Positions 10,574 to 60,813 of a DNA stretch of 64,000 nt are shown here, in pieces. The notes below the pieces were generated by a model, which saw nothing but the letters and a program-made list of their open reading frames with translations, searched no databases and was not told the DNA's origin. The translations under genes were made by a program, and so were the position numbers. The stretch's first letter is position 1, and each line of letters opens with the position of its first letter. Source of the stretch: Exiguobacterium profundum (GTDB lineage: Bacteria > Bacillota > Bacilli > Exiguobacteriales > Exiguobacteriaceae). The stretch covers positions 294,684 through 358,683 of the forward strand of contig NZ_MRSV01000001.1 in NCBI RefSeq assembly GCF_001909285.1, read 5' to 3'.

Positions 10574-11248
10574 TTACTCATAAAACATGCCGTTCGCACG
10601 TTCTTTCAATCGTTCACTATTTAAAATGATGACTTCTTTTCTCGTTCGTTTGACCAATCCTTCATCCACGAATGCCTGCAACGTTCGGTTCAAGTGACGA
10701 TAACTCGTCCCTAGCCACTCTGCGACTTCTTTCCGTTTCAGTTGACTCATCTCCGCTTGAAACAGTTCATTCCCAGATTCACTGAGTGAGATCAAGTAAC
10801 CGGCCAACCGCTCTTCGAGAGTCGACATGAGATGATTCGACGAGGCGTTTGCCTCGATGAATAATTTTTCGGACACGCCTCGTAACAGATGCTCCGTGAA
10901 TTCGACCGTGCGATTATATCGTCGAAGCGCCTCGAAAGGGATGCGCAGACACGTCACGGGACCGACCGCTTCAACCGTATGCAATACATTGCGTCCGCTC
11001 GCATATTCGATATCTCCAATCAATGTTGGAGCAGCCTTCAGACGCAACAATCGCAATTTCCCTTCTTCACTGAGCGTATAAATTTTGACACGCCCTTCAA
11101 GGACGACGAATAAAGATTCGATGTGCTGATCGTTCGAACATAACATGGTCCCAGACGCATATGTCACTACGGACGAGGACTCAAGCGTTTCATTCGAAAA
11201 CAGATGATTCCACTGCAATCGTTTCAGTGCATCCATAATATCCATCAT
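10574..11248 (-). CDS. Crp/Fnr-family transcriptional regulator
   Basis: 224 residues from ATG at 11248, chosen because AAGGAG lies 10 nt upstream. A longer frame extends to 11419 but overlaps the upstream gene and has no ribosome site. A cyclic-nucleotide-like beta-barrel (about 15-115, e.g. FVVLEGRVKIYTLSEEGKLRLLR), a dimer helix, and a C-terminal HTH (KRKEVAEWLGTSYRHLNRTLQAF, quoted in part) are visible. It lacks the Arg/Ser cAMP pocket signature and has no Cys cluster for iron-sulphur. The resemblance is to YeiL-type regulators. It lies between two YdcZ-like transporter genes, which it probably controls. Confidence 0.82.
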   Translation of the reverse strand: MMDIMDALKRLQWNHLFSNETLESSSVVTYASGTMLCSNDQHIESLFVVLEGRVKIYTLSEEGKLRLLRLKAAPTLIGDIEYASGRNVLHTVEAVGPVTCLRIPFEALRRYNRTVEFTEHLLRGVSEKLFIEANASSNHLMSTLEERLAGYLISLSESGNELFQAEMSQLKRKEVAEWLGTSYRHLNRTLQAFVDEGLVKRTRKEVIILNSERLKERANGMFYE

Positions 11249-27509: not shown

Positions 27510-27899
27510 ATGCTTCACCATGTTGAGCTTTACGTTTCAAACCTACACGACAGTATACGTGCCTGGGAATGGCTCCTGTGTGAACAACTTGATTACACGC
27601 TCTATCAATCTTGGCCAGAAGGACGGAGCTATCGATACCGTGAAACATATCTCGTGTTCGTTCAAACGGAAGAGGCCCACCTGACGCCACCTTATCACCG
27701 AAAAAAGACTGGTCTTAATCACTTGGCATTTCATGCGTCCTCCCTCGCACAACTAGAAGAAGTTCGGCAACAACTTGCATCCCACGGGTTTCGTGAATTG
27801 TACGCGGACCGCTTCCCCCACGCAGGTGGCCCAAACTATACAGCACTATTTTTTGAAGACCCGGACCGCATCAAAGTTGAACTCGTGGCAGCGATGTGA
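27510..27899 (+). CDS. VOC superfamily (glyoxalase/dioxygenase fold) protein
   Basis: 129 residues. Begins MLHHVELYVSNLHDSIRAW, one VOC module pair, with a metal His at the start (HHVEL), His in NHLAFHAS and Glu in IKVELV. The ATG at 27510 follows GAAAGGA by 8 nt. The ligand set fits a glyoxalase, fosfomycin-resistance or lactoylglutathione-lyase-type enzyme; which one is not clear. Confidence 0.7.
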   Translation: MLHHVELYVSNLHDSIRAWEWLLCEQLDYTLYQSWPEGRSYRYRETYLVFVQTEEAHLTPPYHRKKTGLNHLAFHASSLAQLEEVRQQLASHGFRELYADRFPHAGGPNYTALFFEDPDRIKVELVAAM

Positions 27900-27920
27900 A
27901 CGGTTTCTTGAGAACTTCTT

Positions 27921-27945
27921 GAAAGTTTGTGAAAACAATTGCAAA
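27921..27945 (+). promoter_or_regulatory. Possible Rex-like operator upstream of the formate/nitrite transporter
   Basis: GTTTGTGAA and ATTGCAAAC form an imperfect palindrome; TTGTGAA is a perfect Rex half-site but the second half matches poorly. Rex controls the FNT gene ywcJ in B. subtilis. Weak evidence. Confidence 0.3.
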
Positions 27946-27968
27946 CTTGACGTCGACCTCCTAGACTG
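27939..27968 (+). promoter_or_regulatory. Possible promoter of the formate/nitrite transporter
   Basis: TTGCAA (27940-27945) and TAGACT (about 27962-27967) are about 17 nt apart. Transcription from it would begin inside the hairpin described next, so the mRNA would lack that hairpin's 5' arm. Confidence 0.3.
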
Positions 27969-27992
27969 AAAGGGTCTAAAGGAGGTTTTTTC
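27956..27992 (+). promoter_or_regulatory. Terminator-like hairpin that buries the ribosome site of the FNT gene
   Basis: ACCTCCTAGAC (27956-27966) pairs with GTCTA-AA-GGAGGT (27974-27986), an 11-bp stem with a 2-nt bulge, followed by TTTTTT and then the ATG at 27993. The 3' arm contains the whole AAGGAGG. On read-through RNA from the VOC gene it can stop transcription or block translation; RNA begun inside the hairpin would be free. Confidence 0.7.
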
Positions 27993-28793
27993 ATGGAAAA
28001 GCAAGTCGTCGATTATATGGAAGAAGCCGCATTCAAGAAATCATCATTGCTTCAACATTCATTTCCTAAATACATGTTACGATCGATAATCGCCGGTTTT
28101 TTAATCGGGATTGGAGTCGTCTTCTCATTCACCGTCGGAAACATGTTCATCGATGTCCCCGGTACGATGCTGATTGCAGGCGCCAGTTTCTCGGTGGCCC
28201 TCGTCTTCATTGTCTGGATGGGGGGAGAGTTGTTCACGAGCAACACCATGTATCTCTACACCGGTGCAAAACGAGGACGTGTCGCTTGGTTCGACCTCGC
28301 AAAGATATGGGGACTCAGTTGGGTCGGTAACTTGATTGGTGCCGTCCTGCTATCGCTTCTCGTCATCGGAGCTCACAGCATGGGTGACGTGTCGGGTGAC
28401 CATTTGCTTGCTGTCGTCGCCGCGAAGAAAATCGGTGGAGACGCCCTTGCTATTTTCTTGAAAGGAATCTTATGTAACGTGCTCGTCTGTTTGGCCATCT
28501 TCATGCCACTCAAAACGAACAATGATGTCGCGAAGATTATGCTGACGATGCTTCCGGTCGTCGTATTTTTCGCCGCTGGATTCGAGCACTCGATTGCGAA
28601 CATGGGCGTTTTCGCTCTCGCGCTCCACTATGTACCGTCGGACCTCGTCACCTTTAGCGGTGCCCTTTACAATCTATTCTTCGCCACACTCGGTAATATT
28701 GTCGGTGGTGCGTTGTTCGTTGCCGGAAGTTACTTGTATTTGAACAAATCGGAGACGGAACAAACCGTCAAGCCGATACGTTATCATGCATAA
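27993..28793 (+). CDS. Formate/nitrite transporter (FNT) family channel
   Basis: 266 residues, six membrane helices. FNT signatures: GGELFTSNTM (about 75-84) and GILCNVLVCLA (about 150-160), and the central pore histidine and threonine region SIANMGVFALALHYVP. It moves formate, nitrite, lactate or hydrosulphide anions; the substrate cannot be read from sequence. Gene follows a ribosome-site-burying hairpin and a Rex-like site, consistent with redox control. Confidence 0.85.
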   Translation: MEKQVVDYMEEAAFKKSSLLQHSFPKYMLRSIIAGFLIGIGVVFSFTVGNMFIDVPGTMLIAGASFSVALVFIVWMGGELFTSNTMYLYTGAKRGRVAWFDLAKIWGLSWVGNLIGAVLLSLLVIGAHSMGDVSGDHLLAVVAAKKIGGDALAIFLKGILCNVLVCLAIFMPLKTNNDVAKIMLTMLPVVVFFAAGFEHSIANMGVFALALHYVPSDLVTFSGALYNLFFATLGNIVGGALFVAGSYLYLNKSETEQTVKPIRYHA

Positions 28794-60027: not shown

Positions 60028-60654
60028 TTGAGTAAACGACAACAAAACAAAGAAGAACGAGTTCAACTGATTATCCAAGAGGCAGAACGCTTATTTATAG
60101 AGAATGGCTTTGAGAAGGTTCAGATGCAGGACATCGCGGATGCGGCAGGGATTGGGGTGGCGACACTGTTTCGCTACTTCCCGAAGAAAGATCAATTGAT
60201 TGTTGCGGCAGCCGTCAAGAATCTACAGCCCACACTCGAGAGATTTGAACAGTTCATGCATGGGGAAGGCAGCGCATATGAGCGGCTCGAGGCCATCTTG
60301 AATCACTTTTTCGAGATGCAGTTGGAGCGGACGAACCACGCCCGTTTCCGAGAGGCGTTCGAGAGCTATGCATCGTTCGTCGCCTCACCGCTTCCTGGGA
60401 TCGAGACATACATCGACGTTCAACGACAGATCATGCAGACACTCGAACCCTTGATCGAAGATGGGAAACGAGACGGTTCATTCCGCTCGGATATCGATGT
60501 GAAGGTGACCGTCGTCACAATCATCAATACGTTCGGGACGTTCGGCAACAACATCATGTTGAAGTCGCACATCAGTTATTTAGAGGACGATATTGAACCG
60601 GCCGTACAATTGCGTGCTTTAAAAGAGATGTTCCTCGCATCCATTCGAGCATAA
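60028..60654 (+). CDS. TetR family transcriptional regulator
   Basis: 208 residues from a TTG start 8 nt after GAGGTG; longer in-frame starts are near or within that site. HTH near residues 25-50 (ENGFEKVQMQDIADAAGIGVATLFRYFPKKDQL, quoted here only in part: IADAAGIGVATLFRYF). The C-terminal domain is the ligand-binding type and not assignable to a ligand. Adjacent palindrome and divergent SDR gene suggest it represses that gene and itself. Confidence 0.82.
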   Translation: MSKRQQNKEERVQLIIQEAERLFIENGFEKVQMQDIADAAGIGVATLFRYFPKKDQLIVAAAVKNLQPTLERFEQFMHGEGSAYERLEAILNHFFEMQLERTNHARFREAFESYASFVASPLPGIETYIDVQRQIMQTLEPLIEDGKRDGSFRSDIDVKVTVVTIINTFGTFGNNIMLKSHISYLEDDIEPAVQLRALKEMFLASIRA

Positions 60655-60658
60655 GAAA

Positions 60659-60684
60659 AGCCTCCCTTCGTTTGAAAGGAGGCT
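60659..60684 (+). terminator. Terminator of the TetR gene
   Basis: AGCCTCCCTT (60659-60668) pairs with AAAGGAGGCT (60675-60684), one mismatch; weak U-run. Confidence 0.55.
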
Positions 60685-60696
60685 AGTTGTATACAT

Positions 60697-60813
60697 AAAA
60701 AATGAGCACCTCTCACTAGAGGTGCTCTCGAAAGTCTACCGCGACGGACCACGCTCCACAACGTGCTCCTCAAGGGAATGTCCGCCGTCTTACATAGACC
60801 AGCTCATCGCATG
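60697..60813 (-). ncRNA. Candidate small RNA, about 117 nt, divergent from htpG
   Basis: The minus strand has a strong promoter (TTGACG 60848-60843, 17 nt, TATAGT 60825-60820) and a terminator, GAGCACCTCT/AGAGGTGCTC (60718-60727 with 60704-60713, loop CACT) followed by TTTTTT (60702-60697). No ORF of note is between them. The body can fold: GTCTA and GACGG near the 5' end pair with CCGTC and TAGAC near the 3' end, with an inner CACG/CGTG stem. Not recognised as a known family. Confidence 0.55.

Follow-up and report, generated by a model that had tools for sequence, protein, structure and literature searches.

A conserved hairpin that buries the ribosome site of a formate/nitrite transporter family gene and overlaps a candidate promoter in Exiguobacterium

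Introduction

In the insertion sequences IS10 and IS50, read-through RNA hides the ribosome site of the transposase gene, a protection from outside transcription, and lacZ read-through RNA has been described in similar terms. Bacterial genes stand close together and terminators are leaky, which makes it a practical question, still open, how genes escape expression from a neighbor's RNA. Phage T4 offers several arrangements. For gene e, the pertinent section of one source relates that the long early RNA buries the ribosome site, that late promoters in the DNA of the 5' strand give a well-translated RNA, and names soc and gene 49 alongside it (PMC3014915). For the T4 genes I-TevI, I-TevII, I-TevIII and segB and for mobE of Aeh1, the corresponding section of another source describes a promoter whose position keeps its RNA from forming the structure that hides the Shine-Dalgarno sequence (SD); at I-TevI, an operator over the promoter provides a second control, the repressor being the endonuclease itself (PMC2988022). 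In our literature search, which had most subscription journals outside its scope, we recognized no bacterial chromosomal case of a promoter within an SD-hiding hairpin.

Here we describe a chromosomal locus of Exiguobacterium profundum with a similar anatomy, located in a 64,000-nucleotide stretch of DNA that we analyzed as a whole (the window). The locus was compared across 19 genomes of the genus, the source genome included, and the analysis followed up an earlier note made on this DNA.

Results

A VOC/glyoxalase-fold gene, the presumed origin of read-through RNA, precedes FNT1, a gene of the formate/nitrite transporter (FNT) family (Table 1). The FNT1 protein scored under the cut-offs of all five NCBIfam models that it matched, which leaves it without a formate-versus-nitrite assignment. 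The VOC stop (27899) and the FNT ATG are separated by 93 nt, which contain an imperfect palindrome, a candidate promoter and a hairpin. Between the VOC stop and the hairpin's 5' arm there are 55 nt, so that, to judge from the coordinates, ribosomes ending VOC translation should not melt the structure.

Table 1. Positions of the features discussed (window coordinates unless a contig or locus is named)
Feature	Position	Strand	Basis or remark
VOC/glyoxalase-fold gene	27510..27899	+	Pfam PF00903, E 3.6e-07
FNT1, formate/nitrite transporter family gene	27993..28793	+	Pfam PF01226, E 1.9e-62
Imperfect 26-bp palindrome AAGTTTGTGAAAACAATTGCAAACTT	27923..27948	.	24/26 positions invariant, 19 orthologs
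Candidate -35, TTGCAA	27939..27944	+	Top sigma-A-like pair with TAGACT, spacing 17 nt, 19/19 leaders
Candidate -10, TAGACT, within the 5' arm	27962..27967	+	6/6 positions invariant
Hairpin 5' arm GACCTCCTAGAC, including anti-SD CCTCC (27957-27961)	27955..27966	+	ACCTCC 5/6 invariant
Hairpin 3' arm: GTCTA 27974-27978, AA bulge, GGAGGT 27981-27986	27974..27986	+	Folding and conservation
Shine-Dalgarno AAGGAGG, in the 3' arm	27979-27985	+	Sequence
T-rich spacer TTTTTTC, SD to ATG	27986..27992	+	Run of 6 T in source genome
AAT-family gene (PF03417), source copy	G000:C1:839969 (L315, upstream of position 1500)		TATAAT inside anti-SD/SD hairpin
Gene for a small membrane protein, immediately following a GNAT gene	L301:1530-1580 (G000:C1 about 2479030)		SD-burying hairpin with TATACT, 19/19

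The stem of the hairpin consists of ACCTCC/GGAGGT and TAGAC/GTCTA with an AA bulge, and its local fold has an energy of -16.7 kcal/mol. The GGAGG of the ribosome site is base-paired, its two leading A residues forming the bulge, and a repeat finder also gave the exact arms ACCTCCT/AGGAGGT. The earlier note had described a hairpin with a buried AAGGAGG, followed by a T-run and the ATG; all of these elements are present where it had placed them, and we confirm that the hairpin burying the FNT ribosome site is real. The structure was ranked among 505 SD-bearing gene starts of the source genome, chosen by a simple script from the 64-kb window and 40 nonrandom stretches of 20 kb. The FNT start came first when the sample was ordered by local hairpin energy and second when it was ordered by SD-opening energy, behind an OsmC-like gene (OsmC being read from the sequence). 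The OsmC-like locus, whose 5' arm resembles an SD belonging to a divergent frame, was set aside. The fold of the whole 111 nt has a modest z-score of -1.94, 8 of 200 shuffles folding equally well, so that the case for the hairpin rests on comparison.

Palindrome, hairpin, SD and FNT occur in identical order in all 19 genomes. On the VOC side, a same-strand ORF stops 22-24 nt ahead of the palindrome at each of the 19 orthologous loci; the N-terminal motif of VOC was seen in 17 of these ORFs, the script having placed the start further upstream in the other two. Drift within the genus was gauged at several kinds of site: among fourfold degenerate sites, 5/72 are invariant in FNT (mean pairwise identity 0.55) and 2/34 in VOC (0.41), and none of the 20 positions preceding the palindrome and none of the 7 in the spacer between palindrome and hairpin is invariant. 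Against this yardstick, the invariant positions number 24/26 in the palindrome, 5/6 in ACCTCC, 6/6 in TAGACT, 4/5 in GTCTA and 5/5 in GGAGG, and the distance from the palindrome to the -10 is the same in all 19. From the outermost to the innermost pair, the stem is paired in 16, 13, 17, 19, 19, 19, 19, 19, 18, 19, 19 and 19 of the 19 orthologs. The outer A-T pair is lost in six orthologs and one inner pair is broken in L020, while the bulge ranges from A to AAA (1-3 nt) and both the loop and the SD-ATG spacer are variable. An arm mismatch in orthologs L007 and L008 goes with reduced predicted SD pairing (0.81 and 0.91). No compensatory changes were found in the FNT stem among the 19 orthologs; what is conserved is the sequence, so covariation is silent here. 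The hairpin, its conservation, the order of the parts, the fixed promoter spacing and the upstream gene on the same strand can be read directly from the compared loci.

The sequences point to a strong constraint on the 5' arm. A -10 and an SD would be expected to be kept in any case, and the elements that need explaining are CCTCC, which sits within the promoter spacer, and GTCTA, which sits in the interval between promoter and SD. Each is complementary to the segment opposite. We know of no sigma-A contact in the promoter spacer that would fix CCTCC.

The candidate promoter TTGCAA-17-TAGACT (27939-27967) agrees with the consensus at 8 of 12 bases; it is weak by this measure, and a consensus promoter scan with a threshold of 9/12 did not list it. 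A simple sigma-A matrix, run over the sequence from roughly 60 nt ahead of the palindrome as far as the ATG, ranked it first in all 19 orthologous leaders, so that comparison supports the promoter in the 5' arm that had been suggested from the single sequence. Counting seven bases on from the -10, the predicted start is the G of GTCTA in 17 orthologs and the base preceding it in the other 2. The -10 would thereby place the FNT transcription start at about 27974, where the 3' arm begins, and the leader made from this promoter would be short (19-22 nt in the orthologs).

Folding predictions agree with the earlier proposal that burial of the SD would be confined to RNA begun upstream. With the 5' end placed anywhere as far as the first base of CCTCC, predicted SD pairing in the 19 orthologs averages 0.98 (minimum, 0.80), and the mean drops to 0.34-0.54 once the 5' end lies at least 3 bases into CCTCC or beyond; residual predicted pairing in the RNA of the candidate promoter is 0.25-0.67. 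The predicted energy for opening the SD averages 10.7 kcal/mol (5.7-15.1) in read-through RNA versus 1.9 kcal/mol (0.4-4.7) in own-promoter RNA, the values for the source genome being 9.8 and 1.4 kcal/mol, respectively. The 505 sampled genes have a median of 2.8 and a 99th percentile of 9.4 kcal/mol.

The 26-bp palindrome is probably an operator overlapping the -35, where it appears to be placed as a repressor site would be. Its core is present as a single copy in each of the 19 genomes (18 exact, 1 with one mismatch) and precedes FNT in all of them. A wider palindrome regulon was rejected, the 24-bp core being unique in the source genome at up to 3 mismatches; the same tolerance gives one occurrence per genome throughout the 19. 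Searches with a degenerate form of the palindrome gave no excess either, with 16 matches per strand versus 22 for the reversed control.

As to the regulator, the earlier note had pointed to Rex. The half-site TTGTGAA that it reported is present, inside the larger palindrome (27923-27948). The Rex operator consensus of Firmicutes is TTGTGAAW4TTCACAA in the pertinent part of a published account (PMC2883068). The palindrome shares the left half and the center with Rex operators and differs from them in its right half, which has 3 mismatches, and in its flanks, AAG...CTT, which lengthen the dyad. With these 3 mismatches, it falls outside the TTGTGAANNNNTTCACAA-like Rex operators. A Rex matrix was built from six Rex-like sites of the source genome, located near adhE-, rex-, ldh- and NADH-oxidase-like genes (names read by eye from translations) and FNT2. 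The palindrome scores 11.1, versus 19.5-24.4 for the six sites, a comparison that favors these training sites, and among 863303 windows of the sampled sequence, 23, the palindrome included, score at least as high. The half-site stands and the link to Rex is weak. A Rex-like site, TTGTTAATGATTTCACAT (G000:C1:1985458-1985475, L251), identical in all 19 genomes, is found at FNT2, the genome's second FNT gene; no CCTCC arm is visible by sequence upstream of FNT2. Since the closer site lies at FNT2 and the weak one at FNT1, the paralog is the likelier target of Rex, which we set aside as the regulator of FNT1.

Two other kinds of site were compared with the palindrome. The Crp/Fnr-type sequence TGTGA-N6-TCACA is found in the palindrome with 2 mismatches, and 393 of 863385 windows are as good. 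HTH_Crp_2 has 6 matches above the cut-off in the source genome, one of which is a Crp/Fnr-type regulator helix-turn-helix (PF13545) at 10601-10813 (-) of the window. A catabolite (cre) site was rejected, its 2 mismatches being matched by 611 of 863467 windows.

Outside the genus, a half-site scan of genome contigs gave at least 80 loci; among the matches listed, 6 were from Exiguobacterium and the rest from scattered taxa. Such scatter is what chance would give, and an origin elsewhere was rejected. The nearest FNT protein outside the genus, among 348 genomes of the class, is 43% identical, and inspection by eye of 13 unaligned extra-genus FNT loci revealed no similar block upstream.

There is a fair chance that the FNT locus is one of several such loci. 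The pattern CCTCC-N8-30-GGAGG-N3-12-ATG gave 278 matches in the 19 genomes versus 79 for the reversed pattern. This control takes no account of the SD-ATG bias, and the count is raised by gene pairs that diverge; in genome G018, the reversed control exceeded the pattern (11 versus 10). With permuted pentamers as controls, 11 matches compare with 3, 5, 3 and 2 in the sampled 0.86 Mb, and 3 compare with 1, 0, 0 and 0 at 235 GGAGG-bearing gene starts, numbers too few for a genome-wide claim. Two recurring sets among the matches listed were followed in all 19 genomes, namely, those at an AAT-family gene and at a gene for a small membrane protein. Both share the FNT layout in 19/19, the promoter of the small-protein locus being doubtful.

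At the AAT locus, the order of elements is TCAGACA, anti-SD, TATAAT or TATACT, and AAGGGAGG, and the 5' arm is preceded by a same-strand ORF, whose end is 19-20 nt away in 18 genomes and 107 nt away in the remaining one. For row L303, in which the script settled on an earlier TCAGACA, spacer and stem energy were left out. The anti-SD reads CCTCC, CCTTC or CCTCT, and the five SD pairs are Watson-Crick or G-U in all 19. The invariance of this block (3/5) is not above that of the 12 nt before the -35 (7/12), although these 12 nt may form the tail of the upstream gene. At the small-protein locus, CGCCTCCCC is 8/9 invariant, TATACT 6/6 and the preceding six bases 0/6, no clear -35 was seen, and the stem is followed by ATTTTT in 17/19. 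On the sequence, a terminator combined with SD burial is an equally likely reading there; terminator, promoter and ribosome site may all be combined in this one hairpin. Predicted opening energies for read-through and own-start RNA are 13.7 versus 3.3 at the AAT locus and 14.3 versus 4.1 at the small-protein locus, and in some short RNAs the SD is still predicted to be paired, up to 0.97 in the AAT copy of the source genome and up to 0.89 at the small-protein locus.

Several further hairpins were noticed in passing. The SD of a YitT-family gene (PF02588; L200:2029, -; G000:C1:142027-142064) is buried by CCTCCTCTCCGT..ACGGGGAGG, near-identical in relatives among the matches listed; no -10 was seen in the hairpin, and the locus was set aside. 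At L202:7894 (G000:C1:247837-247899), apparent divergent frames have mutually complementary SDs, CCTCCAAT/ATTGGAGG, and overlapping -10-like hexamers, an arrangement that recurs in relatives among the matches listed. An unidentified gene in L298, L299 and L300 (positions 1438, 1490 and 1535) has an SD-burying hairpin, CCTCCCC..TTCCTTACGATAAGGAA..GGAGG, with one compensatory change from A-T to C-G across the three genomes; upstream of it lies a TGTGAC..AACACAG palindrome. In the window itself, a second hairpin, CCTCCTTTCAAACGAAGGGAGG then CTTTTCTT (60650-60682, -), lies just past a match to the BsrF sRNA (60704-60810, -); hairpins like it, with changed stems, occur in relatives among the matches listed, a similarity that does not imply identity of the locus.

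Discussion

We lean toward the reading that the FNT locus is a translation switch which depends on the transcription start site and shields FNT from read-through. RNA reading through from the VOC gene would hold the complete hairpin, in which the anti-SD CCTCC together with TAGAC would pair with GTCTA-AA-GGAGG and block ribosomes from starting FNT. Because the candidate promoter lies across the 5' arm, its own RNA, begun at about 27974, would lack that arm, and the SD would be open. Such a switch would leave FNT expression to be set by a regulator bound to the palindrome over the -35, and FNT protein would be made only when its own promoter fires. Promoter activity, read-through, translational silencing, the role of the palindrome as an operator and the regulator acting on it are the steps that we infer here from sequence.

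The same hairpin could instead be the intrinsic terminator of the VOC gene, its overlap with the FNT ribosome site being mere compactness. The earlier note had called it a terminator, and the shape is indeed there in the source genome, a stem followed by T6; a terminator scan reported no other terminator-like site from the VOC stop to FNT, and the similarly built hairpin of the small-protein locus runs into its ATTTTT in 17/19 genomes. Across the orthologs, the T-run holds up less well than the stem. At least 5 T occur within the 8 nt past GGAGG in 10/19, which leaves room for a terminator, yet an uninterrupted run of at least 5 T is found in only 3/19 and fewer than 5 T of the eight in 9/19, with the stem nonetheless present in all 19. 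Moreover, the FNT hairpin was not itself listed by the terminator scan, and termination leaves the invariance of TAGACT and its constant distance from the palindrome unexplained. We have therefore set termination aside as the main function, retaining it as an unlikely rival.

There are two further readings. In one, a leader-RNA switch, transcription would start upstream of the palindrome, both hairpins would be part of the mRNA, and the SD hairpin would be opened by a ligand, by temperature or by a protein. The palindrome, nearly invariant with its loop included, can fold as an RNA hairpin too, with two G-U pairs. This reading would call for a conserved promoter candidate upstream, whereas 0/20 positions are invariant before the palindrome and the best promoter lies inside the hairpin in 19/19 leaders; in addition, a comparison of 27850-28050 with the covariance models of Rfam 15, which covers described families only, gave no match at E values up to 1. 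We give it a low probability, much as for termination. In the other, CCTCC would be a promoter element or part of the site of a DNA-bound regulator and its complementarity to the SD incidental. This would fit the invariance of CTCCTAGACT, its constant distance from the palindrome and the fact that the visible conservation is of sequence rather than pairing. It would not account for GTCTA, which lies outside the promoter hexamers and is likewise conserved and complementary; a bulge of 1-3 A would be poorly tolerated by a DNA dyad, and the CCTCC of the AAT gene drifts only to forms that pair with the SD. We consider such an incidental complementarity quite improbable.

The cases of a promoter within an SD-hiding hairpin that are cited here concern phage genes, and a conserved chromosomal set of such cases would mean that cells use a phage trick on their own genes. 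Operon maps drawn from RNA-seq coverage could then overstate which genes are cotranslated, and the layout would offer a compact design for promoters proof against read-through.

Among the described systems, IS10 and IS50 differ from the FNT locus in that their structure arises from a mobile element's terminal inverted repeats. By anatomy, the FNT locus resembles T4 gene e and I-TevI, and we read it as a possible cellular, genus-wide variant of the phage device. As at gene e in the part of the account cited above, the SD would be buried in RNA initiated upstream (predicted pairing mean of 0.98 for FNT). At the FNT locus, the best-scoring candidate promoter lies across the 5' arm and a same-strand ORF is found upstream, both in 19/19. 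Gene e, as presented there, differs in its phage late promoters, its early/late timing and its mapped 5' ends, whereas the FNT locus is chromosomal, has a sigma-A-like promoter under a palindrome, extends through the genus and is known here from sequence alone. The T4 homing endonuclease genes, in the section concerned with them, are mobile phage genes within phage operons and differ from FNT in this respect; the FNT palindrome may be a second control, as the operator is at I-TevI. More broadly, Exiguobacterium may repeatedly place an anti-SD in promoter spacers, at no fewer than three unrelated chromosomal genes (those of the FNT channel, the AAT-family amidase and the small membrane protein) with a same-strand neighbor just upstream, so that translation would be set by the transcription start and the promoter would be the only route to protein. 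We offer this generalization tentatively, at slightly less than an even chance; it would make these hairpins a cellular counterpart, present throughout the genus, of the hairpin of T4 late genes.
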